From Treponema sp. (GTDB lineage: Bacteria > Spirochaetota > Spirochaetia > Treponematales > Breznakiellaceae): a DNA stretch of 33,285 nucleotides. Within the stretch, counting starts at the first letter, position 1. Each line of letters begins with the position of its first letter. The notes below the pieces were generated by a model. That model was not told where the DNA came from and ran no database searches. It was given only the letters and a program-made list of their open reading frames with translations. This document shows, one piece after another, positions 7,206-19,106 of the stretch. The stretch covers positions 1 to 33,285 of the forward strand of contig JAISSH010000061.1 in NCBI GenBank assembly GCA_031273265.1, given 5' to 3'. A program made the position numbers and the translations under genes.

Positions 7206-8450
7206 TTACATACGCAGTTTCTCATGGAGCAGATCCCTGAATTTGGCGACTGATTTGTTGTTTGGCTCAAGCGCGAGGGAGTTTTCGCAGTCGGATAAGC
7301 CCTGGGGGTAATCGCCGATGTGGTAGAATGCCTGACCGCGCCTGAAAAGACAGAAGGACTGATAGGGATTTATCGAAAGGGAGAGGGTATAGTCGTCTAT
7401 CGCGGCTAAATACTGCTTTAATACCGAGCGCACCACGCCGCGGTAATAGGCGGCTTTGTATGATTTTTCATCGAGTTCAAGGGCGTGGTTAAAGTCTTCA
7501 ATTGCTTCATCGTAGCGGGAACATGCGAAGTTCGCCATGCCGCGGTGTTTGTAAATTGTCGCGCATATATCCCGCCTTGGATTTAAAGCCAGAATTTTGC
7601 TGTATTGGGAAATCGCGTCATTAAAACGGTTTTGATTATGAGCGGTAAGGGCAAAGATTAAAAGATCGTCAATGGAAACCTTATCGCCGGAAGCGGCTTC
7701 CCTGCCGGCATCGAAAACAGGAATCGCGCTTTTTTTATCGGCTTCTTCGCTAAAGAGAAGGTCGTCCGTCGATTCTTCAATTTTCTGATAGAAACTTCCC
7801 CTTCTTTTTTCAAGCTCTCTTGAGTATTTACGCTGATAAGTCCTGATCTCCTGAAAAATTATGTCCGCAAGAGAAAGGCTTGCGTTAACAGCCGCCAGTT
7901 TTCGTTTCATAGGTTCGTCAAAGGGGCTGAATTCCGCTTTGTAAACAAGCTCATGCTCAACTTCCGCCCAGGCATCCTGCAAAATTGTCCGTATTTGAAT
8001 CTCCGCGATTTCTATGCCGGGGTTGCCGTGTTTTTCTATTATTTCCTTCGGGATTGATATAAGAATGTGGGTAGATTCATAGCCGAATTCCTTAAAAGTG
8101 TAGTGTCCCTTTCTTTCCTCTTCGACAATGTCAAAGTTTTTCCTTATCAGTTCTTCCGCTTCGCCTAAATCCTCAATGAAAGGGCAGATGATCCGCACTC
8201 CCATAAGGTCTGTAATCTGCGGGTCGTCAACCCCGTTTTTCAGAAAGCGCAGGTATTTGTAAAAATAACTGGAAAAACTTTTATTCCTGCCGCTGACGAC
8301 CGGATTTGAGTTAAGAGAGACAACAATACTCTCCACGCGCAATTTTAAGTCGTTAACGATATGATGGCGCGTTTCAGAATATTTTTCAAATTCCTCCCGC
8401 ATCTTATCCTGATTTGGGGAAGAAACACTGTTATTTGTTACATTATCCAT
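7206..8450 (-). CDS. RelA/SpoT-domain (p)ppGpp synthetase fused to TPR repeats
   Basis: The N-terminal half is a RelA/SpoT nucleotidyltransferase domain of the small alarmone synthetase kind. It has DPQITDLMGVRIICPF (about 76-91), FGYESTHILI (about 122-131) and EIQIRTILQDAWAEVEHELV (about 150-169), the last being the conserved helix that closes the active site. There is no HD hydrolase domain, so it should only make ppGpp or pppGpp. About 90 variable residues then lead to three or four TPRs (about 265-414) such as AIEDFNHALELDEKSYKAAY. I use ATG 8450 (MDNVTNN); an ATG at 8480 would lie in the loop of the flaA terminator hairpin. Neither has a clear ribosome site. TPRs probably sense or anchor a partner. 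Confidence 0.85.
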   Translation of the reverse strand: MDNVTNNSVSSPNQDKMREEFEKYSETRHHIVNDLKLRVESIVVSLNSNPVVSGRNKSFSSYFYKYLRFLKNGVDDPQITDLMGVRIICPFIEDLGEAEELIRKNFDIVEEERKGHYTFKEFGYESTHILISIPKEIIEKHGNPGIEIAEIQIRTILQDAWAEVEHELVYKAEFSPFDEPMKRKLAAVNASLSLADIIFQEIRTYQRKYSRELEKRRGSFYQKIEESTDDLLFSEEADKKSAIPVFDAGREAASGDKVSIDDLLIFALTAHNQNRFNDAISQYSKILALNPRRDICATIYKHRGMANFACSRYDEAIEDFNHALELDEKSYKAAYYRGVVRSVLKQYLAAIDDYTLSLSINPYQSFCLFRRGQAFYHIGDYPQGLSDCENSLALEPNNKSVAKFRDLLHEKLRM

Positions 8451-8456
8451 AGCTAT

Positions 8457-8500
8457 AAAAAAAGGCTGTCTGAAAAACATATGTTCTTCAGACAGCTTTT
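8457..8500 (-). terminator. Rho-independent terminator of flaA
   Basis: Perfect 10-bp inverted repeat GCTGTCTGAA (8465-8474) / TTCAGACAGC (8487-8496). On the - strand it is followed after one C pair by seven T (8463-8457). It lies about 35 bp past the flaA stop and ends only 6 bp before the synthetase ATG at 8450. Confidence 0.85.
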
Positions 8501-8531: not shown

Positions 8532-9584
8532 TTATTGTTGTTCCTGCTGTCTCTCAGGGCTGCCAAACGGAGGTTCGCTGGCTTGTTTCTGCTGTTCCAG
8601 ATAACGAAGAACCTGAGTTTGACCAAAGCGTTCCATTTCCCAAACCTTGCGGGCGGTTTCACGGGTAAGAATGATATTCCACAGGGCTTCATCATCAATA
8701 TCGCGATCAACATCAAGAACCGCTTTATCGTAGATAATCCTTACATCTTTGAAGTAGGTGATAAAATCCCCGCCTTCTCTAGCGGCATCGCGCTGTAGCA
8801 GGAATCCGCCGAACTTTACAAACGGAGTGGAAGTCGGATAAAGAGGATAGAGCCTGATATCGCGGTTTCTTACTTCCTGAATGTAAGCGGGGTTGTTCCA
8901 GATGAGTTCTCCCCATCCGTCGTGCAGCAGGTAACCCATAAACACGTTTTTATGGATGCCCCGGCTGTCGATAAGGATCGTTGAGAGACCGTGGGGGAAT
9001 TGAAGACCGTAGACATTCACGGCTACCGACTTAATAACGGCGACGTTCTTTACAACGCCGTACGCCGGTTGTCCTTCTTCCTGAGCCTCAAAACGGCTTG
9101 TACCGGTGATACCGTCGCTGTCCGGCGGATCGATACTGCCGTCGTCGTTGACCTTCGCTTTCGGTTCAAACGCCGGAATCTCAAAAGGCGGTCTAACAAT
9201 TGCCCATGAGTTGAACGGTTCAACAGGGAAATGCACCCTTACGCCCATTACAGTTTCAAACTGTTTGGAAGGCGCTTCTTTGGTGTAGCTTAGACCGATA
9301 TTTTCCACTGTTCTGGACGAAGACGCCAGTTCAACTTCCCAGTTTTCAATTGCGAGAGAAGTTTTCATAACCCGCTTCTGCTGGGTTGTGAAGCTTCCGC
9401 CGGCAACAGAGGAAAAATCCATCATGGTTTGACGATTATGGTTCGGCGTATCGCTCGTATCATTTTCGCCTAAACTAACATGAATATCCGCTTTAAGTAA
9501 TGTAAAGTCGATGAGGGTAGCCTCCTCGGCAAACAGCGGACCCGCTAACATCGCAATAACGACAAGAATGAGCATTTTTTTCAT
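8532..9584 (-). CDS. flaA: Periplasmic flagellar filament sheath protein FlaA
   Basis: Sheath protein of the spirochaete periplasmic flagellum. It has 350 residues, the length of the well-known treponemal FlaA. A cleavable signal peptide is obvious (MKKMLILVVIAMLAGPLFAE, cut near residue 19-20), followed by a beta-rich body that includes NWEVELASSSRTVENIGLSY and MGYLLHDGWGELIWNNPAYI, as expected for the FlaA family. The Gln-rich tail (RQQEQQ) is probably disordered. ATG 9584 is chosen because AAAGGAG stands 7 bp upstream; an earlier in-frame start at 9626 would spoil the signal peptide and lie in the promoter region. It is monocistronic by its own promoter and terminator. Confidence 0.95.
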   Translation of the reverse strand: MKKMLILVVIAMLAGPLFAEEATLIDFTLLKADIHVSLGENDTSDTPNHNRQTMMDFSSVAGGSFTTQQKRVMKTSLAIENWEVELASSSRTVENIGLSYTKEAPSKQFETVMGVRVHFPVEPFNSWAIVRPPFEIPAFEPKAKVNDDGSIDPPDSDGITGTSRFEAQEEGQPAYGVVKNVAVIKSVAVNVYGLQFPHGLSTILIDSRGIHKNVFMGYLLHDGWGELIWNNPAYIQEVRNRDIRLYPLYPTSTPFVKFGGFLLQRDAAREGGDFITYFKDVRIIYDKAVLDVDRDIDDEALWNIILTRETARKVWEMERFGQTQVLRYLEQQKQASEPPFGSPERQQEQQ

Positions 9585-9631
9585 GCACAGCTCCTTTAAA
9601 AACACATGTTTCAAAATTTCAATCATCTCTG

Positions 9632-9732: not shown

Positions 9733-10248
9733 TTAGGCTCCCTGACGCCCCGGCTGGAATTCCTCATAAAACGCAGTTTCGCCGTCTATAAAAAACCGCA
9801 CGTCCCTGACGTATGAAAAATTCCTTAAAATACCGGCGTAAAAGGTGCGGAAGTTGTCAAGCGTCCTTCCCCCCTCTTCCGGCGGCAAAACCGCTTCCCC
9901 CGAAAAATTGGCGTATACAACCCCGTTCCGGTACAAAAGCGAATTAAGCCTGGTTCCACGCGGGAAAAGCGGCAGCAAACCCGGGGCTATAGGCCCCAGA
10001 AGCGTTTCCTCCGTATAACGGATAATGTCAATTTCCCGTGATGGGGACCGTTTCAGCATCCGGTCTTCTACTACAATACCCCCGTCACTTATAGTATAGA
10101 ATACAAAAGTCCTTCGCGCAAGCCCTAAAATAAGAAATTCCGCCAAAGCCGCAACCGCCAAAAGGCAGAGCAAAAGAGTACGCCGCCTTGCTTTTATCGC
10201 CAGAAATTCAACGGCTGGTCTTAATATCATGTTTGTAACAGCGTTCAT
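9733..10248 (-). CDS. GerMN-domain membrane-anchored protein
   Basis: A 171-residue protein with one transmembrane helix near the N-terminus (about 24-44, TLLLCLLAVAALAEFLILGL) and a periplasmic GerMN domain (about 95-160). The domain is recognised by GTRLNSLLYRNGVVYANFS and FRTFYAGILRNFSYVRDVRF, which match the family pattern of a short beta strand, a V-Y-V-(N/D) strand and a VxxVxxL-type segment. GerMN domains occur beside cell-wall amidases and lipoproteins and probably bind peptidoglycan or partners. ATG 10248 overlaps the stop of the amidase gene (TGATG), so the two are coupled. It is the last gene of the operon. Confidence 0.75.
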   Translation of the reverse strand: MNAVTNMILRPAVEFLAIKARRRTLLLCLLAVAALAEFLILGLARRTFVFYTISDGGIVVEDRMLKRSPSREIDIIRYTEETLLGPIAPGLLPLFPRGTRLNSLLYRNGVVYANFSGEAVLPPEEGGRTLDNFRTFYAGILRNFSYVRDVRFFIDGETAFYEEFQPGRQGA

Positions 10249-11294
10249 CAACGTTCAAAAATACCGATAAAATTTGTTATCCCATTGTACAATGAATCGA
10301 TGAGCCTTTGCAAGCCCTCGTCGCTTGTCATAAGAACGGCGTCCTGCGGGTTGGAAACAAAACCCAGTTCCACAAGCACCGCCGGCATACGGCTGTTTCT
10401 TACCACAAACCAGTCGTTTGCCTTTCTGCCCCTTGAGGGCACAGATTTGCCGAATTCCTGACCAAGTCCGAGAAGTATTGAATCCGCCAGAAGGATGCTT
10501 TCGGTCGTGTATTCTTCCTCCAGCATGGCGTTCAGTATTGCCGTAATATCGGCGGAATAGTTGTGTTTGGATTTATCCAGAAGCGTCCTGCGGTATCCTG
10601 AATTTATGTGCCATACTTCGTAGCCGCGGGCGTTGGAATTGACGCTTGCATTGGCGTGTATGGAAATGAAAATGACGGCTTCATTGTCTTTTACCGATAC
10701 GGCGTTTGCCATGTCCGCGCGCTGTTCCAGACTGGGAAAGACATCTGAGTCCCTTGTCATCATAATGCGTTTATCGGGATAGGTACGGTTCAGCATATCT
10801 CTTAATATTAACCCGGCTTTCAGAACAATATCTTTTTCGACTACCTGAACAGTTTTTCCGTTTAATACCATATTCCTTGCCGCTCCCGAATCGCGTCCCC
10901 CATGACCGGGATCGATTACAATGGTCGTAATCCTAAAACGGGAAGAGTCATTTTCAAGGGATTTTGAAAAAGCGTTTTTCAGAGTAACGACAAAATTTTC
11001 GGGGAAAATCAATTTGCCGTTGTCGTTGTACGGCATGGGAACATTGAAAAGCTCCCTGTTGTCGAAAACGAGAAAACCGGTTTCCCCTTCTTTGGCGGTT
11101 GTTGAAAAAACTCCGTAATGATCGCCCATGTTGAAAACGCCGTCCCGCAAAAGCGGGTCCCAGCGGAACTGCGCTTTGTTATCCGATATAGCCGAAAGCG
11201 TGTCAAGAGTTTCATCAAGGGTGAGGGCGGGCAGGGAATGGAAAGCGAGGAGAAGGAAGCAGAAGAGGAAAATTATTTTGAGAGCTTTTTTCAT
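10248..11294 (-). CDS. N-acetylmuramoyl-L-alanine amidase (Amidase_3, AmiC-like)
   Basis: Zinc amidase that cuts the bond between MurNAc and the stem peptide in the periplasm. A signal peptide (about 1-23) leads into a 90-residue region of unclear fold (possibly an AMIN-like targeting domain), then the catalytic domain (about 122-346). Zinc ligands are in place: DPGHGG with His131, VEKDI with Glu153, and SIHANA with His213. The catalytic Glu is Glu309 in LVELGFVSN. At 348 residues the length is usual. The start ATG overlaps the ATP-grasp stop as ATGA. In spirochaetes such enzymes serve cell separation, and possibly passage of the flagellar rod through the wall, which would suit the neighbouring flaA. 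Confidence 0.92.
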   Translation of the reverse strand: MKKALKIIFLFCFLLLAFHSLPALTLDETLDTLSAISDNKAQFRWDPLLRDGVFNMGDHYGVFSTTAKEGETGFLVFDNRELFNVPMPYNDNGKLIFPENFVVTLKNAFSKSLENDSSRFRITTIVIDPGHGGRDSGAARNMVLNGKTVQVVEKDIVLKAGLILRDMLNRTYPDKRIMMTRDSDVFPSLEQRADMANAVSVKDNEAVIFISIHANASVNSNARGYEVWHINSGYRRTLLDKSKHNYSADITAILNAMLEEEYTTESILLADSILLGLGQEFGKSVPSRGRKANDWFVVRNSRMPAVLVELGFVSNPQDAVLMTSDEGLQRLIDSLYNGITNFIGIFER

Positions 11295-12883
11295 TTTTTT
11301 CCCGCGCGGTTATCAATGTAATAGACCGCTCCCTGATAGGAGCCGCGGATAAGGGCGTTCCAGAAGGAGCGTCCCAATCTTACTTTATTTTCGGCATTTT
11401 CAGGGCTTAACGGAAGGGAAAAACCAGTTAAGAGGCGGACAGCTTCGAGAGTTTCTTCGACGGTTCTGCCCATGTAGTCCCGCAAACCGGAGGAGGTAAA
11501 AAACGGAAAGGGAATGATTGAATATTCCGCGCCATTCGCCGGAGGGTCGGGGATTTGGGAGAGAGCGGATTTTAGTTCGTCTGTCAGTTGAAAGGCGTCC
11601 GGCGGGAAGGACTTTCTTCCGGCGGGGAGGGAGATAAAGTCCGCTGTCCGCGGATCTGAGGGATCGAGTCTTACAAGGAGAGAGCGGGCGGCGGCTTCGG
11701 CTGTTGATACGGCGGTCTGTCTGTCCGGCGCGGAGGCGATGATGTTGCCGCACTTTGTTACGTTGTTTTCCGGGAAGGAAACCTTGCCGCCTTCCTCAAT
11801 ACGAAGGAAAAGGTCTTTTACGTAGGGCTTGTTTCGCGCCTGTTCAACGCCGAAAATCTGTTTGACCGTTCCCGGAATGGAAATAAAGGCGCGTTCGGCG
11901 CAAGTCCAATTTTTTTCCGGGACAAGACCGTCCGGCGCTCTGCCCATAGCGGCAAGAATAGCCGCTCTTATCGGCTGGACGCCGGACGAATACGGATATG
12001 TCCAGCCGGACATATAACCGCCGGAAAGCCGTGCGGCTATTTCGCCGATCATGGGTCCGCGTGATGTGAATTTGATGTCGCCCTTTGCCGCGCCTATGCT
12101 GTCCTTTCCCGCAAGCCCAAGGGAGCGAACCCCGGCGCGGAAGGTTTCGAGCATAGCGTCCTGTTTTTCCTTTTCTATGACAGTCGGCATCGTATGTCCC
12201 ATTTCGATAAAGTACGGCGGGAAAAAAATGTGCCTGTCAGCCAGTCCGCAGATTGTAATTTCGCCGTGGTAGACAATCGCGTCCACCGAGAATTCCGGTC
12301 CGTCCATAAAAGCTTCCACAATCGCCCTTCCTGAGCGGGAAAAACTTATCGCCGATTGAGCCGCTTCATCAAATTCTTCAACAGCGTTTACGCGGCGGCA
12401 GCCCCTTCCCCCCATGTTGTCTACCGGTTTAATCACAAGTGGGAAGGGCATATCAGGCGTCAATTTATCCGCTTCGGTGATGGTAATAAAATCAGGGGAG
12501 GGAAGCCCGTCTTTTTTGAAACAGGCGCGCATTCTTGACTTGTCAGAGGCGTTAAGCGCGGATTCGTATGGAATACCGGGCAGTCCCAATTTTTCGGCGA
12601 CCCACGCGACGCTTGCGGAAAAGTCCGTTCCCGCCGTCAATATCCCCAAACGGGAACTTGAACTTTGAATTGAGCGGGCGAAGGCTTCAATTTCTTCCTT
12701 GTTTTTAAGATCGATTTTTTCAAATTGATCCGCCATGGAAATACAGGGTGCCTGAGAACTTCCGTCAAGTACGATTGAATAAAAACCCAACTCTCCGGCT
12801 ATTCTTATCGCCGGTCCCTGCATGACGCCCGCGCCTAAAATTATCAGGCGTTCTTTTTCATTTTTTTTCGGCGTAAACTTCAA
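11291..12883 (-). CDS. ATP-grasp ligase (carbamoyl-phosphate-synthase-L-chain-like)
   Basis: About 530 residues with an ATP-grasp fold. The N-terminal Rossmann-like part begins ERLIILGAGVMQGPAIRIA. The ATP-binding loop is in FPLVIKPVDNMGGRGCRRV (about 150-168). Metal and ATP ligands follow in GDIKFTSRGPMIGEIAARLSGG (about 275-296). Such enzymes join a carboxylate to an amine through an acyl phosphate. The substrate is unknown; the neighbourhood of sugar-modifying genes suggests an amino acid or amino sugar. The last 100 residues are not assigned. No ATG is available: TTG 12883 has GGGAG at a 6-bp spacing and is preferred over TTG 12901. It overlaps the upstream fusion gene by 26 bp. Confidence 0.8.
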   Translation of the reverse strand: MKFTPKKNEKERLIILGAGVMQGPAIRIAGELGFYSIVLDGSSQAPCISMADQFEKIDLKNKEEIEAFARSIQSSSSRLGILTAGTDFSASVAWVAEKLGLPGIPYESALNASDKSRMRACFKKDGLPSPDFITITEADKLTPDMPFPLVIKPVDNMGGRGCRRVNAVEEFDEAAQSAISFSRSGRAIVEAFMDGPEFSVDAIVYHGEITICGLADRHIFFPPYFIEMGHTMPTVIEKEKQDAMLETFRAGVRSLGLAGKDSIGAAKGDIKFTSRGPMIGEIAARLSGGYMSGWTYPYSSGVQPIRAAILAAMGRAPDGLVPEKNWTCAERAFISIPGTVKQIFGVEQARNKPYVKDLFLRIEEGGKVSFPENNVTKCGNIIASAPDRQTAVSTAEAAARSLLVRLDPSDPRTADFISLPAGRKSFPPDAFQLTDELKSALSQIPDPPANGAEYSIIPFPFFTSSGLRDYMGRTVEETLEAVRLLTGFSLPLSPENAENKVRLGRSFWNALIRGSYQGAVYYIDNRAGKK

Positions 12884-14645
12884 AGGTATCTCCCAAACCA
12901 AAGAGTTTGCTGATCAATAAGAGAAGCAGATACGCGATGCCTTTGCTTTTTTTCGCCATTTTTCCAAACGCGGGGAATCGTTCTGGATGATGTCCTGTTA
13001 TAATTATTTTTTTTACCTTAAAGCCCATTCGCTCAAGATTTTTTTTGCATACCGACGGCGACCAGACAGTCCAGTGATCCGCGGGGCTTGCCTCAAGGAA
13101 TTTGCCGATTGATTTCCGTCCGCTGATTCCTGAAAAAGACGGAGTTGAAAAAGCGAGAATTCCCCCCGGTTTCAGAATGTCTTTGATTTTTGCCAGAGCC
13201 GCTTTACAGTCGGGAAAATGCTCCAGAACCAGCCAGAGTGTTATTACGTCAAAGGGAGGATCGGCAGGATAGGGGCAGTCCCCGAAGAAGCCCTGAACGG
13301 CGGGAATGTGGAGTTCTTCATTCACATAGTTGACGGCTCCCTCCCACGGATCAATACCGGAAACGGAAAAGCCTTCGTCAGCCGCGGCTGAAAGGAAGGG
13401 TCCGTAAGCGCAGCCTATATCGAGAAGTTTGCGGATCTCTTCCTCTCCCAACGGGGGAAGATAGGATTTAATCCGTTTAAGACGGCGTTTTCCGACGGCT
13501 TTAATATTCGGGAAATCCTCAAGGTAGGTTTTTCCGTACTGCTGCGCGTATGTTTCGTAAAAGTACTCGCGCGTGTATTCAAAGGGCGGCGGGCAGGTTC
13601 TGTCCATGTAAATTATGCCGCAGTTTGTACAGCGGCGGTAGGTACGTTCGCGTTGGCGCTGAACGCTGTTTGGCGGCTCTTTTTCCCCGCAGACAGGACA
13701 GCGGCGGCTCACCTTTGGATCTAACTCGCCGCAGAGGACGGCAAGGCGGTTTCCTTCCCTCAATCTGTACCATTCCGCCAGAGTTTCGCTCTTTTTTTTC
13801 ATTATTTTAAAGAAAAATTTTATTAATAAAATTTTTAATAAAAAAAGTTTTTTTATGCTGATAAATCCGGCTGTTCCGGCAAGTTTCGCGTGATGGTCGG
13901 TAGGCGGAACCAAAAGAACAGTCGTGTGGTTGTACAGCGCTTCATAGGCGGTGATGCCGTAGTGGGTAATAACAAGATCGTATTCGTCAAGATGTTCAGA
14001 CAGTTGTGGAATTTTCTCAATAACGCGGACATTCGGAAATGTTTCTGTAATTTTCTTTGCCAGACTTCCCTTGAGCAATGTTATATCAAGATTGCTCTTG
14101 TTTATCCCGGAAAGCGCCTGCGCGACTGTAACGCCGAGATTTGCCGAATCTTCCTGTCCAAAAGCCACAAGAACTTTTAAGATGCCGCCTTCGGCTTTTT
14201 TAGCCATGAGCGGTTTTGCCGGGAATTTCAACAGAGCCGGATCAATTATATTCGCGCGCGGGCGGCTGAGTTTTTCGGGGATAAGTATATCGATAAGAAA
14301 ATCAAAGCTGTCGCGGCTTTTACCGCCCTCGTCAATGCCGATTACAGGCGCGATTTCCTTCCAGCGGGGAAGCTCGTCGTCCTGCGTTTTATAACGGTCC
14401 AAAATGATAAAATCAACACCGTCTGCCGCAACGCGCCGAACATCTTCATCAGTTATGCGCCACTGCGGATCGAAACTCATGGAATTAAAAATATTTTCAA
14501 CGTCTTCTGTCTTTGCGGACAGCACAAGAAAAGCCTTTTTGTTCATTGCCCGCAGATCGTTTACAAGGGTTATGCACCTGCAAAGATGTCCGCCGCCCCG
14601 TCCGGGCTCAAACGAAGGGACTATTAATATTTGACCTTGATTCAT
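12858..14645 (-). CDS. PseG-like sugar nucleotide hydrolase/glycosyltransferase fused to SAM methyltransferase
   Basis: Two-domain protein of 595 residues. Residues 1 to about 260 resemble PseG/SpsG, the GT-B-like enzymes that remove UDP from a diacetamido-trideoxy sugar: PGRGGGHLCRCITLVNDL near the N-terminus is the glycine-histidine loop, and YDLVITHYGITAYEALYNHT the second nucleotide-binding region. A lysine/leucine/phenylalanine-rich, very AT-rich linker (about 263-282) follows. Next is a zinc ribbon (CPVC at about 316, CTNC 22 residues later), then a class I methyltransferase with KLLDIGCAYGPFLSAAADEG, VSGIDPWEG and FDVITLWLVLEHFPD. ATG 14645 overlaps the nucleotidyltransferase stop (ATGA). 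It probably builds and methylates an unusual nonulosonate-like sugar; the exact product is unknown. Confidence 0.85.
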   Translation of the reverse strand: MNQGQILIVPSFEPGRGGGHLCRCITLVNDLRAMNKKAFLVLSAKTEDVENIFNSMSFDPQWRITDEDVRRVAADGVDFIILDRYKTQDDELPRWKEIAPVIGIDEGGKSRDSFDFLIDILIPEKLSRPRANIIDPALLKFPAKPLMAKKAEGGILKVLVAFGQEDSANLGVTVAQALSGINKSNLDITLLKGSLAKKITETFPNVRVIEKIPQLSEHLDEYDLVITHYGITAYEALYNHTTVLLVPPTDHHAKLAGTAGFISIKKLFLLKILLIKFFFKIMKKKSETLAEWYRLREGNRLAVLCGELDPKVSRRCPVCGEKEPPNSVQRQRERTYRRCTNCGIIYMDRTCPPPFEYTREYFYETYAQQYGKTYLEDFPNIKAVGKRRLKRIKSYLPPLGEEEIRKLLDIGCAYGPFLSAAADEGFSVSGIDPWEGAVNYVNEELHIPAVQGFFGDCPYPADPPFDVITLWLVLEHFPDCKAALAKIKDILKPGGILAFSTPSFSGISGRKSIGKFLEASPADHWTVWSPSVCKKNLERMGFKVKKIIITGHHPERFPAFGKMAKKSKGIAYLLLLLISKLFGLGDTFEVYAEKK

Positions 14646-15349
14646 GTTCTAAAAATCTCCCTGTACTTTTTTATTATTATATCACCATAGTAGCGGTTTG
14701 GGGTAGTTTTCAAGGCGTCATACAGTTTTTTTGCGCGTTCAAAGTCCTCCGCTGTGTCTACGGTAACGCGGATAGGGCTGTTTTCCGCCCCGGAGGCTTC
14801 GGCGCGGCAATCCTGCCAGCGCAGGGGGGCAAGCGGGCGGTGGAGGCGGAAAATTTCAGGGTGGTTGTAAAGGTAGGGGCAGACGTGTTCGCGCTCACAG
14901 GGAGAGGACGCTTCCGCCCCGGCTCGCAAAAGGGCGGCGGCGCTGACAGATTCCACTCCCGCGCCATAGGGGATTCCGCCGTAACCGGCATAATCGGCGT
15001 TTAACGCCGCCGCTTCCGCGCTGATTGCCGATGCCGCGTCCGCGAAAACAAAGGGGTTGTCGCCAGTTGCCCTGATTACGCGGCTGATTGAATAACGGCG
15101 GATTGCGATGCAGAAGCGCTCAAGAACGTCCTCTTTTGGACCCGCGATTATTTCAAAGCCCGCTTCGGCGGCAATGGGCGAGAAGGCGGAAAGCGAGTCT
15201 TCGGGGCAGGCGAGAATTTTCAGTTCTGAGGGAACATTGTTTAACGCTTCCATTACCCGAAAAATGAGCGGTTTCCCGTCAAGGGGAAGAAGGGCTTTTT
15301 GCGGAAGCCTTGTAGAATCAAGACGCGCCTGAAGTATAATCGCCGTCAA
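14642..15349 (-). CDS. SpsF/NeuA-like cytidylyltransferase family protein
   Basis: A 235-residue member of the CTP_transf_3 (SpsF) family. The N-terminal nucleotide-binding loop IILQARLDSTRLPQKALLPL is almost textbook (QARxxSTRLPxK), and RVIRATGDNPFV (about 91-102) holds the metal-binding Asp of the activation site. Such enzymes load a sugar, commonly a nonulosonate, onto CMP, or act in spore-coat style glycans. The start is TTG 15349 with GGGAG at a 6-bp spacing, one base after the upstream stop. It ends in a 4-bp overlap with the PseG-like fusion gene. That pairing of PseG-like and NeuA/SpsF-like enzymes is what pseudaminic or legionaminic acid-type pathways use. Confidence 0.87.
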   Translation of the reverse strand: MTAIILQARLDSTRLPQKALLPLDGKPLIFRVMEALNNVPSELKILACPEDSLSAFSPIAAEAGFEIIAGPKEDVLERFCIAIRRYSISRVIRATGDNPFVFADAASAISAEAAALNADYAGYGGIPYGAGVESVSAAALLRAGAEASSPCEREHVCPYLYNHPEIFRLHRPLAPLRWQDCRAEASGAENSPIRVTVDTAEDFERAKKLYDALKTTPNRYYGDIIIKKYREIFRT

Positions 15350-15350
15350 C

Positions 15351-16373
15351 TTATTCTCCCGGTTCTGTTACGGATATATTGTCCCAGCGGCTTGTTACGG
15401 CGTGGGCGTCGCATTTCCACCTGTATTTGTTTTTTATCACCCATTTTCTGCTTTCCGTAAATTCTCCCCAGGCGGTAATGAAATCTTCACCGGATTGAAA
15501 TAGAAAACGCGGAAAGCGGTAGAACGGCAGATGCGCGTAATCGCCTCGGAATACTGGAGCAAGATTTTTCAGATAAAAGCGGCTGTAGCTTTCCTCGACA
15601 GTGTAGTCTTCGGCGGGAAGTTCTCCCTCGCATTGAAGTTTCAAATGAAGGCTTAGGGCAATTTCCTCTCCCCAAAGGTGGGCGCGAAAACCGAAATCCA
15701 TAAACTGCCAATATGTGTTTTTTATTGTTATGTCAAATCCGCCGGACTGAATAAAACGCTGGCGGTCGTATATTCCCACTCCGTCAAAAGGATAGAGGCT
15801 TAAAGTCCCCTCGTCCTGCGCTTCCATAAAACTTGTTTTAATTTTTCTTTTATGCGTCATCGGAATAACGAGCGTGGGAAGGTTTTCATAATTTGAATTC
15901 ACTATAACCGGAACTGTGCAGAGTCTTTTAAAACCTGTGTTTTGCTCTCCCGCGCCGCGAGTTTCCTCACCGTTCTCTTCCCGGCTGATTGTCAGCCTTT
16001 CCGCCATCCGCCTTGCTATTCCTCCTGAAATAATTTTCATATCACTGCGAAGGACAAAGAAGAGCGGGCTTTCAATTTCGCAAGCCGCAAGGTTGATCTG
16101 TTCGCCAAGGTTAATTTCCTTTTCCGGCAGAATAAAACGCACAGAAGGAAAACGCCCCGACAGTTCTTCAATATCGTAATGCGGCGCGGAAGACTCAATC
16201 GAAATAACATTGTCAAATCCTGTTTTTTCAAGTTCCTGAAAAAAAGAACGGCGCTGGAAACCCGAACGGTTCAGGACGACGGCGGAAATACCGGTGGAAG
16301 CTATGCGCTCCTTGCCGCCCACAGCCGTATACGGCGTTATTTTTTCGTTAAAAGTTGTAGGTATAGTATTCAT
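15351..16373 (-). CDS. GT-A-like glycosyltransferase-related protein
   Basis: A 340-residue protein with remote resemblance to family-2 glycosyltransferases. The N-terminal strand-helix pair ISAVVLNRSGFQRRSFFQEL looks like the nucleotide-sugar fold, and SPLFFVLRSDMKII (about 102-115) sits where the acidic DxD-type metal motif normally is, here RSD. FDGVGIYDRQRFIQSGGFDI resembles the acceptor-side region of such enzymes. It overlaps the spiro-SPASM gene by 26 bp. ATG 16373 lies inside that gene and no strong ribosome site is seen, so translation probably depends on coupling. Donor and acceptor are unknown. The relationship is reasonably likely but not certain. Confidence 0.6.
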   Translation of the reverse strand: MNTIPTTFNEKITPYTAVGGKERIASTGISAVVLNRSGFQRRSFFQELEKTGFDNVISIESSAPHYDIEELSGRFPSVRFILPEKEINLGEQINLAACEIESPLFFVLRSDMKIISGGIARRMAERLTISREENGEETRGAGEQNTGFKRLCTVPVIVNSNYENLPTLVIPMTHKRKIKTSFMEAQDEGTLSLYPFDGVGIYDRQRFIQSGGFDITIKNTYWQFMDFGFRAHLWGEEIALSLHLKLQCEGELPAEDYTVEESYSRFYLKNLAPVFRGDYAHLPFYRFPRFLFQSGEDFITAWGEFTESRKWVIKNKYRWKCDAHAVTSRWDNISVTEPGE

Positions 16374-17904
16374 CGCAGTTCACGCAAAGCCCCGTATAGT
16401 TTTTTTGGCAGTGTTCTTTGTAATGCCGCTCTCCCCTTTGCCAGATGTTTTCAAGGGAATCGGTAAACACATTTCCCAATATATAATCATTGCCTTCTTT
16501 TTTCAACGCCGCAAGGTTTTCCCGGCAAAGAGGCACGTCTCCGTCCGTTAAGACAGGCATGTCCCGCATTATGTGCCAACAACTCCGGCGTATAAGAGGC
16601 GATATGTCCGAAGCCTGTTTCTTTTCCAAAACGCCGCAGAAATCATCGTACTTTTGAATGATGATGTTCGCGCCGGAAGGAGACGCTTCCTTCCATGTGC
16701 GGTAAAATTTTTCCGTATCCTCTTCCTCGCCCTTCATGCGGACAGCCTGCACATAACAGTCTTTTGGAAAGAGCGAAAAAAGTTTTTTGGCACATTCATT
16801 GGCTTCGGCAAAACCCTGTCCCCTGATTTCCATATACCGCTGAGGGCTGTTAGTGTCAAGGGACACGATCCATGAAAGCGGCGCAAGGGAGTTTTTCCTC
16901 TTTTTCGCGTTAAGTGAAAGTCCGGCGCATTTTTCCAGTTCTTCGGCTTTCCAGCCAAGACCGGAAGTTTCGATAATCAGGGAAAGCTCGCTTCGCGAAA
17001 CGACAGCCTCAATTAGTTTCATTTTTTCGGGGTGAAGGCTCAATTCCCCCCAGAGGGAAAGGTCTATAACCGCGTCCCCCGAAAAGGCGGCGATTTTGTC
17101 CAGCAGGGATTCGAATTTTCCGCTCTCCATAAAATCTTTTCGCTCAATGACATTTGTAACATGAGGGTAGGGACAATAGGCGCATTTTTGCGGACAGCCG
17201 CCGTAAACTTGAATAGGGTAGAAGCTCGGAAGCGTCCTCAGGATTTCAGGCTTTTCTTCGACTATCCGCTCAACATCGGCGGCGGTAGGGATTTTTGCGT
17301 CCGCCGCGTCAATAAAATTTTTCAGTAACAAGAGGTTTCGTTTTGAATCCGCGCAGAAGTTCAATCTGTGACAGCGCAGGTCTACGGCGGAAATTTCAGC
17401 CTCGATATCAAAGGCGTTGATGTCCTTTTGAATGACCGAAAACAAAATGTCCCTTTCGACAGCGCCGTCGTCATCACCCAAAATTTTCGCCAAAATGCCC
17501 GCTGTTCCGGGGGACAGCATTTCAGGCGCGAGACCGTAGGGCAAGCCGTCGGCGTAGGAATATTCGGCGGTATAGCGAAGATGCCGCCCGGCGACTGCCT
17601 GCGCAAGAGCCGGGTCAAGGAACGGACAGTCCGCGAAGGCAAAAAAGACGCAGTCAAAACCCGCCTGAAGCTCCGAAATTTTTTCCAGCAGGCTTCGTTT
17701 TGTCCAAGAAGCCCTTTTTTCGATTTGAATTCCCGAAAAACCGGAAAAATCTCCGTGTTCACAGGCAAGAAGAACCGTTTTTCCCACACTTGGGAACTTT
17801 TTTGCCTGTTCAATAGCCAAATTCACGGCGTTTTTCCCGTTAAAAAGCGGCTGGAAAGCCTCGTTTGACAGGTGTCCGCCGTATAATATCAAAATCGCGT
17901 TCAT
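16348..17904 (-). CDS. spiro-SPASM protein: nucleotidyltransferase-like domain plus radical SAM/SPASM
   Basis: A 518-residue protein in two parts. Residues 1 to about 200 look like a MobA/CTP-transferase fold (FADCPFLDPALAQAV near 90-104, as in nucleotidyltransferases). Residues from about 230 form a radical SAM enzyme with CPQKCAYC (Cys237, Cys241, Cys244) binding the catalytic 4Fe-4S cluster. A C-terminal SPASM-type region follows, with cysteines in SCWHIM, VPLCREN, HCQKNY, LCVNCDEYY, for auxiliary clusters. This layout matches the family named spiro-SPASM, known from spirochaetes with no assigned reaction. It is first in a seven-gene coupled operon. A radical modification of an activated sugar or a peptide is plausible but unproven. 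ATG 17904 has no clear ribosome site. Confidence 0.85.
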   Translation of the reverse strand: MNAILILYGGHLSNEAFQPLFNGKNAVNLAIEQAKKFPSVGKTVLLACEHGDFSGFSGIQIEKRASWTKRSLLEKISELQAGFDCVFFAFADCPFLDPALAQAVAGRHLRYTAEYSYADGLPYGLAPEMLSPGTAGILAKILGDDDGAVERDILFSVIQKDINAFDIEAEISAVDLRCHRLNFCADSKRNLLLLKNFIDAADAKIPTAADVERIVEEKPEILRTLPSFYPIQVYGGCPQKCAYCPYPHVTNVIERKDFMESGKFESLLDKIAAFSGDAVIDLSLWGELSLHPEKMKLIEAVVSRSELSLIIETSGLGWKAEELEKCAGLSLNAKKRKNSLAPLSWIVSLDTNSPQRYMEIRGQGFAEANECAKKLFSLFPKDCYVQAVRMKGEEEDTEKFYRTWKEASPSGANIIIQKYDDFCGVLEKKQASDISPLIRRSCWHIMRDMPVLTDGDVPLCRENLAALKKEGNDYILGNVFTDSLENIWQRGERHYKEHCQKNYTGLCVNCDEYYTYNF

Positions 17905-17936: not shown

Positions 17937-17969
17937 AATAAATGCGCCCTGAAATTAGGTGCGTTTATT
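17937..17969 (-). terminator. Possible terminator after the phosphoesterase
   Basis: AATAAATGCGCC (17937-17948) and GGTGCGTTTATT (17958-17969) can form a 12-bp stem with two G-U pairs, overlapping the phosphoesterase stop. The T-rich arm ends it on the - strand, without a long T-run. It separates the phosphoesterase from the spiro-SPASM operon. Confidence 0.4.
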
Positions 17970-19032
17970 GGTTGCCCAATAACTTAATCTTCGCGAAAAC
18001 GTAGTCCAATTTGTTTTTGTTCAGGACGGCGCGGAAGTACGGTTTTCCGGGGATGCCTTCCAATTCGTAGCCGCCGCGTTTTACGAATTTTTTGCTTTTT
18101 CCTTCGGTGAACCAGTAAACAAGGGCGATGTCTTCGGTTGTTATTTCTATCGCGTTGAGTCCTTTTTTACCGAGGGCGCACCCTGAGTTGAAAAGGCAGG
18201 GGACGGGCAGTTCGTCTCCGTAAAGACTCTGGCGTATACTGTCGCGTCCTTCCTTGCGTTTTAATTTGCCCAGTTCCTTGCGAAGGGCGTTAACTTCGTT
18301 TTCGATACGGCTGCGATCCTCGCCCTGGGAAGCGGGGTAGTCGCGGCAAAGGCGCTCAATTTCAAATTTGATGTATTCAAAGCGCCCCAACGATTCAAAA
18401 AGCGGGCGGTGAGTGTGCCCGATTATCGTGAGGCAGTGGTTCTGCAGAGAAAAAGCGTAGGCTTTTTTTTCTATGTGAAAACGTCTGTACGGACTGCGGG
18501 CGTCGGTAATATTTTTAATACCGAAAGGTTTCAAAATATAGCGCACTCCCACACCCATTAATCTGTTAAACATGACGTAGATCTTTGACAACTGGTGACC
18601 GTGGTAAACATAGGCGGGAAACGCGCCTGTCTCAATTTTTACCACGCTATGCAGAGGATAAGGATATGAGCCGTACTTTTTCATTAGGAGCTGTTCGTCA
18701 TGGTTGCCTATGGTTTTGTAAAGCCTGTTTTCCGCCGCGAAAAGGTTGAAAACCCTGTACAGCCCCGCCCATTTTTCACGTATTTTATCGAGTGAATATT
18801 TCTGGAGTTCTTCAATGTCGCCGTTCAGAATAAGAACCCAGCCGTTCTTGAAATAATATTCCTCAAGCAGACAGGTGAGCATTTCTCCGTTGTTGTTAAG
18901 GTCGTCGCGGAAGCCTGTTCCCATGTGGAGATCGCTTATGACTAAAACCTTGCCGCCTTTTGAGATGTCCAGAATTGAACTTTTTGGAAATTCGCTGTCT
19001 GCTAATCGACTGAAAAAAACTCTATCCGCCAT
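17965..19032 (-). CDS. Calcineurin-like metallophosphoesterase (LpxH-like)
   Basis: Cytoplasmic dinuclear-metal phosphoesterase, 355 residues. All motifs are visible: ISDLHMG (Asp34, His36), LNGDIEE (Asp72), GNHDE (109-113), YHGHQ (143-147) and IGHTHRP (204-210). The order and spacing resemble UDP-2,3-diacylglucosamine pyrophosphatase-type enzymes, but a charged coiled-coil segment (about 215-265) is inserted after the last motif. Treponemes lack classical lipopolysaccharide, so the substrate is open. Its ATG stands immediately after the last base of a tRNA gene, with no room for a separate leader, and no other start codon occurs before the first motif. It is probably made from a transcript shared with the tRNA. 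Confidence 0.87.
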   Translation of the reverse strand: MADRVFFSRLADSEFPKSSILDISKGGKVLVISDLHMGTGFRDDLNNNGEMLTCLLEEYYFKNGWVLILNGDIEELQKYSLDKIREKWAGLYRVFNLFAAENRLYKTIGNHDEQLLMKKYGSYPYPLHSVVKIETGAFPAYVYHGHQLSKIYVMFNRLMGVGVRYILKPFGIKNITDARSPYRRFHIEKKAYAFSLQNHCLTIIGHTHRPLFESLGRFEYIKFEIERLCRDYPASQGEDRSRIENEVNALRKELGKLKRKEGRDSIRQSLYGDELPVPCLFNSGCALGKKGLNAIEITTEDIALVYWFTEGKSKKFVKRGGYELEGIPGKPYFRAVLNKNKLDYVFAKIKLLGNQ

Positions 19033-19106
19033 TGGGCCATCAAGGACTTGAACCTCGGACCAAGAGATTATGAGTCTCCTGCTCTAACCAACTGAGCTAA
19101 TGGCCC
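19033..19106 (-). tRNA. tRNA with anticodon CAT, probably tRNA-Ile2 (lysidine-modified)
   Basis: A 74-nt cloverleaf on the - strand. The acceptor stem GGGCCAT/ATGGCCC has seven perfect pairs, the D-arm is TAGCTCAGTTGGTTAGAGC, and the anticodon stem GGAGA/TCTCT encloses CTCATAA (anticodon CAT). The anticodon arm and variable loop (AGGAGACTCATAATCTCTTGG) closely follow bacterial tRNA-Ile2 rather than elongator Met or initiator Met, whose acceptor and anticodon arms differ (the initiator also has three G-C pairs in its anticodon stem). The discriminator is A and CCA is not encoded. The next base is the A of the phosphoesterase ATG. A TTGACA at 19146-19141 is a possible -35 box, but no good -10 follows. 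Confidence 0.9.

Follow-up and report, generated by a model that had tools for sequence, protein, structure and literature searches.

What do seven tightly coupled genes that lead into flaA make in Treponema sp. contig JAISSH010000061.1 (assembly GCA_031273265.1), and which structure does their product decorate? The window analyzed, meaning the whole stretch of 33,285 nucleotides (nt), carries seven minus-strand open reading frames (ORFs) that fill positions 9733-17904 with all neighbors overlapping or 1 base apart. In transcription order they encode a radical S-adenosylmethionine (SAM) protein of the spiro-SPASM family (gene 1), a GT-A-like protein (gene 2), an SpsF-like cytidylyltransferase (gene 3), a PseG-like hydrolase fused to a methyltransferase (gene 4), an ATP-grasp ligase (gene 5), an amidase (gene 6) and a GerMN-domain protein (gene 7). 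Genes 1-5 quite probably represent a spirochete branch of the nonulosonic-acid (NulO) pathway, the product of which decorates the FlaB core of the periplasmic flagellum. Gene content, gene order, active-site conservation and co-occurrence were observed directly, and from them we infer every chemical step and the target.

The distribution of the pathway was compared with that of flagellin over the same 198 genomes of the class, in tallies that take no account of shared ancestry. We take genome G186 to be T. denticola ATCC 35405 and G077 to be T. pallidum, and the labels Borreliaceae, Brachyspira and Turneriella are likewise our assumptions. A spiro-SPASM protein over the curated TIGR04321 cut-off of 250 bits was found in 127 of the 198 genomes, all of which encoded flagellin, and in none of the 41 genomes without flagellin. 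Flagellates that lacked it comprised all 20 Borreliaceae-like genomes, the only such flagellate clade, and 10 others. The same pattern held within families f14 and f12, where flagellin-less members were without spiro-SPASM and flagellin-bearing members had it. NeuB was present at strong scores in 123 of the 127 spiro-SPASM genomes, and Maf, the flagellin nonulosonic-acid transferase, was present in 127/127 and in 0/20 of the Borreliaceae-like genomes, which have FlaA while the whole sugar pathway is absent. Borreliaceae are accordingly predicted to be without such a flagellin glycan. Genome G063, a 94% complete flagellate with NeuB and four Maf matches, gave no spiro-SPASM match, and its congener G078 has the protein; G063 is a possible case of natural loss.

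Gene order was followed in one locus per family for 40 families of the class, with each domain mapped. Rearranged order was seen in 0/40 loci, and because the order was never rearranged across these representatives the arrangement is not due to chance. All nine domains stood in sequence (spiroSPASM, GT-like, SpsF, PseG, methyltransferase, ATP-grasp, amidase, GerM, FlaA) in 28 loci; four further loci were without the short GerM alone in the single-sequence test, for a total of 32/40 if profile-only GerM is counted. An automated gene-level count, in which profiles of fused proteins cross-labelled ORFs, gave 17/40 with all eight genes in order, and the figure of 28 is the domain-level recount. 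FlaA alone was absent in 2/40 loci, where the stretch was short, and contig ends truncated another 2/40; a complete cluster was not shown in L114, L115, L149 and L151. The cluster was closed by flaA in at least 32 of the 40 families, gene 2 came directly after gene 1 in 39/40 family maps, and GerM always immediately followed the amidase. Most genes overlapped or nearly touched, with the exception of GerM and flaA (median gap about 100 nt). Outside the class, a spiroSPASM-SpsF-PseG core, with or without the methyltransferase, was common and was followed by amidase-GerM-flaA in a few families; Brachyspira-like and Turneriella-like genomes had no recognized pathway partner beside spiroSPASM. SpsF, PseG and methyltransferase formed a single fused protein in several lineages (881 residues in the T. 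denticola-like and 862 in the T. pallidum-like genome). The result is a small, conserved and testable gene set named across the phylum, T. pallidum included. In several other classes (L181-L220, e.g., L208:1894-2859 and L214:1834-2907), a gene resembling SurA/PpiC-type periplasmic chaperones was seen by eye just upstream of spiroSPASM.

Residues expected of working enzymes were retained in genes 3-5. The SpsF signature QAR..STRLP.K plus GDN was present, with Q7, R9, S12, R14, K18, D97, N98 and D198 invariant in 41 sequences, and the nearest solved structure was that of the Leptospira protein 6oew (E = 6e-38). Gene 4 consists of a PseG-like domain (residues about 1-300), a zinc ribbon (C316, C319, C339, C342) and a methyltransferase domain (about 385-550). 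Its PseG portion carries the GxGHxxR signature (G17, G19, H20 and R23 invariant in 41 sequences), N132 and H252 are also invariant and E235 is marked as well, and the PseG profile matched 13/13 relatives at E ≤ 0.001 (best, 1.5e-11). Dozens of residues were invariant in 36 ATP-grasp sequences, including K121, K158, E196, D275 and E287, and the gene 5 product, which matched the L-amino acid ligase 3vot at E = 5e-40, is a candidate amide-bond (N-acyl) ligase. Judged by these alignments, the SpsF, PseG-like and ATP-grasp domains look active.

The ATP-grasp orthologue was kept even where it was unlinked from the cluster, namely in T. denticola (555 bits), in Brachyspira-like genomes (521-525 bits) and in T. 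pallidum, where one frame was matched in three pieces. Loss from T. denticola and T. pallidum, where it was missing from the local maps, was thus rejected, the gene being located elsewhere in both genomes. Searches of five operon-less genomes (two Borreliaceae-like, three flagellin-less) returned background matches or none in all five. Brachyspira-like and other non-class genomes encode a longer form of 720-780 residues (L236:3670-5841, L237:4921-7074, L238:3413-5659, L239:3317-5650), extended at the C terminus by about 300 residues.

Other parts of the pathway were found elsewhere in the genomes. The window's own genome has a NeuB-like synthase at L001:1396-2493 (214 bits), between yebC/ruvC and ilvN (neighbors named by eye), and two Maf (MptE-like) matches. 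PseB-like and PseC-like genes gave clear matches under the cut-off in most relatives, and the two were adjacent in several genomes, that of T. pallidum type among them. The five sugar-pathway genes are all present in T. denticola, together with NeuB and four matches to Maf. In both T. denticola and T. pallidum, a conserved 137-residue gene with a PVPPEL.EDF motif stands directly after NeuB (L171:7517-9073, L172:7886-9645).

These results bear on a preliminary description of the window made from its sequence alone. The seven-gene coupled block was confirmed exactly, in its ORFs, order and junctions, and the family readings of all seven genes were upheld, gene 2 remaining an orphan and the PseG match staying below its cut-off. 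Conserved order in relatives and intact PseG-like and SpsF-like active sites, on which that description had staked its case, were both found, and its suggestion of a pseudaminic- or legionaminic-type route with a flagellar target is supported by presence that follows flagellin. It had also proposed the methyltransferase and ATP-grasp ligase as pathway members, which is supported by retention of the unlinked ATP-grasp gene and by fusion of the methyltransferase to PseG and SpsF. Its statement that PseC, PseH and PseI are not here was correct for the block; the synthase is nevertheless not missing, given the NeuB-like gene elsewhere in this genome, and PseB/PseC-like pairs lie elsewhere in other operon-bearing genomes.

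On the route that we propose, PseB/PseC-like enzymes encoded elsewhere would form a UDP-4-amino sugar (UDP, uridine diphosphate), from which the PseG-like domain would remove UDP; the NeuB-like synthase would condense the sugar with phosphoenolpyruvate, and SpsF would produce the CMP-sugar (CMP, cytidine monophosphate). Together, the methyltransferase domain of gene 4 and the ATP-grasp ligase would install a methylated, amide-linked acyl group, spiro-SPASM would in the window lineage probably oxidize the sugar or this acyl part by radical chemistry, and Maf proteins would move the product onto Ser/Thr of flagellin before export. The amidase, GerM and FlaA would belong to a second module, located in the periplasm. 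The T. denticola glycan is reportedly (Kurniyati, 2017) a pseudaminic-type NulO with a 2-methoxy-4,5,6-trihydroxyhexanoyl group at N7. An N-acyl group that bears a methoxy is what a methyltransferase working with an amide ligase could be expected to make, and we tentatively assign the two enzymes to this group, a match that we rate slightly below an even chance; no paper was found that assigns these genes to the T. denticola FlaB glycan. The FlaBs of that species bear a 450.2 Da glycan that the cells require to assemble filaments and to be motile (PMC9481697), and glycan densities of Leptospira flagellin are located between core and sheath (PMC13144727).

The kind of pathway is a known one. 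With the Campylobacter pseudaminic/legionaminic pathway (PseB-C-H-G-I-F plus Maf) it shares a PseG-like hydrolase, a CMP-transferase, a NeuB-like synthase, Maf, a flagellin target and, elsewhere in related genomes, a PseB/PseC-like pair. It differs in its SpsF-type CMP-transferase, in the fusion of PseG with a zinc-ribbon methyltransferase, in the additional ATP-grasp, GT-A-like and spiro-SPASM proteins, and in a locus that has flaA at its end instead of standing beside flagellin genes. The sps genes of Bacillus subtilis, which make CMP-legionaminic acid (CMP-Leg) for the spore surface, likewise encode a NeuB-like synthase and a PseG-like protein beside an SpsF-type cytidylyltransferase; the transfer of NulOs to flagellin is the work of Mafs (PMC13317340). 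Target and linkage differ in the sps system, with which we know of no spiro-SPASM, flaA or ATP-grasp module. In T. denticola, where the glycan has been measured, the pathway genes are likewise present; the ATP-grasp gene there is unlinked, and the spiro-SPASM protein is without the radical cluster. As far as our searches show, neither the gene set nor its coupling to flaA nor the repeatedly lost radical site has been described.

Gene 1 passed TIGR04321 over residues 4-518, and its structural model (predicted local distance difference test, pLDDT, 90.8) splits into residues 1-229 and 222-517. The N-terminal part is structurally nearest to the Leptospira cytidylyltransferase 6oew (Z = 21.6) and matched the alignment of the operon's own SpsF (hhalign, Prob 96, E = 3e-9). 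Of the catalytic residues of SpsF, however, R9, R14 and K18 are unconserved in this part; it is therefore, on sequence grounds, a degenerate SpsF paralogue. Residues ~222-517 form a radical SAM domain plus a one-cluster SPASM/twitch domain, nearest by structure to SuiB (Z = 22.8) and then to BtrN (4m7t, Z = 20.8 over 232/246 residues), and nearest by sequence profile to BtrN (7e-14 vs 2e-4 for SkfB). BtrN, of butirosin biosynthesis, is a sugar-alcohol dehydrogenase with a single auxiliary cluster held by four cysteines (PMC9012708). The window protein likewise has one auxiliary cluster site (C442, C460, C507, C510), the last three cysteines of which align with those of BtrN (spacing 47 and 3 vs 45 and 3), and its radical SAM motif CxxxCxxC is intact (C237-PQK-C241-AY-C244). 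Unlike BtrN, spiro-SPASM has the added SpsF-like domain and has lost its radical cluster in many lineages.

The CxxxCxxC motif was missing from 16/119 spiro-SPASM proteins of the class and from 36 of 81 in a phylum-wide set (mostly one sequence per family), while the four SPASM cysteines were kept in 81/81. A tree from which the motif region had been left out showed at least 15 changes of motif state, the direction being assumed to be loss, and since several of the losers are complete genomes the loss is not an assembly artefact. Coupling of radical-cysteine loss to loss of the local ATP-grasp gene was rejected, as ATP-grasp is still in place locally in 12 of the 16 motif-less cases from the class. 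Because the motif is missing in so many lineages, the radical SAM step, judged by its cysteines, cannot be essential to the shared pathway. The preliminary description's placement of the radical enzyme in an unusual sugar route is corrected to this extent. In the window lineage, where the motif is intact, spiro-SPASM probably oxidizes the sugar or acyl part by radical chemistry; in motif-less lineages it can act only without such chemistry, perhaps as a partner of SpsF through the SpsF-like domain. We entertain, with rather less than even confidence, a broader reading: spiro-SPASM may be a repeatedly decommissioned radical SAM enzyme whose indispensable role in flagellin glycosylation resides in its SPASM iron-sulfur (Fe-S) site and its SpsF-like pseudo-nucleotidyltransferase domain, probably steering SpsF, with radical chemistry as an optional, lineage-specific decoration. 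If true, this reading would establish a new class of Fe-S pseudoenzyme in the NulO pathway; in any case the family keeps its auxiliary cluster site while the radical site has been lost many times. The term spiro-SPASM was not found in the literature searched.

Gene 2 matched no Pfam or NCBIfam family, and a sequence search of the PDB found nothing. Its model (pLDDT 85) has a GT-A catalytic fold, with GT27 polypeptide N-acetylgalactosamine transferases as the best PDB matches (Z = 19.4, root-mean-square deviation 3.9, 263 residues; next group, 16.3). Relatives share the start MNTIPT and an invariant W222-Q223..D226..R230. In the alignments, the DxD position reads S-D111-M and the usual acidic catalytic pair is replaced by W222-Q223-K-M-D226; the usual catalytic motifs thus look altered, and activity is uncertain.

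The amidase and GerM genes seem to belong with flaA rather than with the sugar genes. T. denticola and T. pallidum both have genes 1-4 together and the amidase-GerM-flaA trio together, with the two groups apart. The flaA surroundings of G186 (four co-directional upstream genes, then a divergent gene) agree with the TDE1716-TDE1712 cluster, and T. denticola flaA is co-transcribed with its four upstream genes (PMC9481697), which by the locus map include amidase and GerM. Reading of the proteins gave export or membrane segments for both amidase and GerM and an apparently cytoplasmic location for genes 1-5; the amidase also shows the H/E zinc motifs typical of such enzymes. Since the trio stays with flaA when the sugar genes lie elsewhere, and since genes 6-7 have export segments, genes 1-5 look like a sugar pathway and genes 6-7 like a separable periplasmic companion of flaA.

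This division bears on the target. A wall amidase in the same operon had led the preliminary description to hint at a cell-wall link, and the sugar could in principle be meant for the wall or surface instead of flagellin, as part of a polysaccharide, a lipid-linked glycan or modified peptidoglycan, the more so as SpsF, PseG and NeuB relatives also serve spore-coat glycans and a few flagellin-less genomes have NeuB without the cluster, for other uses. We consider this improbable and rejected it: none of the 41 flagellin-less genomes, which need walls and envelopes too, carries the cluster, it is present in 127 flagellates, Maf accompanies it in every operon genome and occurs in no Borreliaceae-like one, and it is retained in a 1.14-Mb T. 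pallidum-like genome. The position of flaA as conserved last gene would instead suggest FlaA, the sheath protein, as the acceptor in place of FlaB. That proposal is very unlikely and was likewise dismissed, since Borreliaceae-like genomes have FlaA without the pathway; moreover, flaA lies apart from the sugar genes in T. denticola and T. pallidum, and the title of Wyss 1998, as quoted in PMC13144727, has flagellins, not sheath proteins, glycosylated in treponemes.

A different objection accepts the operon and takes spiro-SPASM to modify a peptide or protein rather than a sugar, in the manner of a maturase of ribosomally synthesized and post-translationally modified peptides (RiPPs). SPASM enzymes often act on peptides, and SuiB, the nearest structure by Z, is a peptide maturase, although BtrN is near it; by profile the match to BtrN is far better than that to SkfB, an SpsF-like domain stands in place of a peptide-recognition domain, and the cluster showed no gene for a precursor peptide, so that we regard this as unlikely. 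Several findings do weigh against the FlaB-directed NulO pathway. The PseG match reached 44 bits against a curated cut-off of 153.6, and because it is so far under the family cut-off the exact sugar is not fixed. This metagenome-assembled genome, which comes from a termite gut and is 87% complete, yielded no strong PseB or PseC match, weak ones only, which may reflect its incompleteness. Ten non-Borreliaceae flagellate genomes, most of them fragmented or incomplete, were without a full spiro-SPASM match, and the co-occurrence counts are uncorrected for common descent.

The features of the locus are collected in Table 1. In transcription order, the junctions of the seven genes are a 26-nt overlap, a 1-nt gap, and overlaps of 4, 44, 4 and 4 nt; the TTG start of the ATP-grasp gene is uncertain, which bears on its 44-nt overlap with gene 4. 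flaA begins 106 nt beyond gene 7.

Table 1. Genes of the sugar and flaA block and their immediate neighbors in the window
Feature	Position	Strand	Basis
Gene 1, spiro-SPASM protein	16348..17904	-	TIGR04321, 595 bits
Gene 2, GT-A-fold glycosyltransferase-like protein	15351..16373	-	no Pfam/NCBIfam family; fold model
Gene 3, SpsF-like cytidylyltransferase	14642..15349	-	CTP_transf_3 PF02348, 106 bits
Gene 4, PseG-like hydrolase + zinc-ribbon class-I methyltransferase fusion	12858..14645	-	PseG, 44 bits (below cut-off); Methyltransf_23, 79 bits
Gene 5, ATP-grasp ligase, L-amino-acid-ligase C-terminal domain	11291..12901	-	ATP-grasp_3/_4 + LAL_C2
Gene 6, exported N-acetylmuramoyl-L-alanine amidase	10248..11294	-	Amidase_3, 149 bits
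Gene 7, GerMN-domain protein, one N-terminal membrane segment (read from sequence)	9733..10251	-	Germane PF10646, 31 bits
flaA, periplasmic flagellar sheath protein	8532..9626	-	PF04620, 228 bits
RelA/SpoT-synthetase + TPR-repeat fusion gene	7206..8480	-	
Metallophosphoesterase gene	17965..19032	-	
tRNA-Met gene	19033..19106		

The nearest named contigs were 75% identical in gene 1, and a viral collection yielded a single relative. The metallophosphoesterase gene, 60 nt upstream of the operon start and preceded by the tRNA-Met gene, recurs in just 13 related loci. Directly after flaA stands a gene that fuses a RelA/SpoT synthetase to tetratricopeptide (TPR) repeats; it was found in 45 of the loci searched and likewise adjoins flaA in T. 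denticola (L179:1643-2875; 474 bits to the profile), which makes a tie between alarmone signaling and flaA possible.

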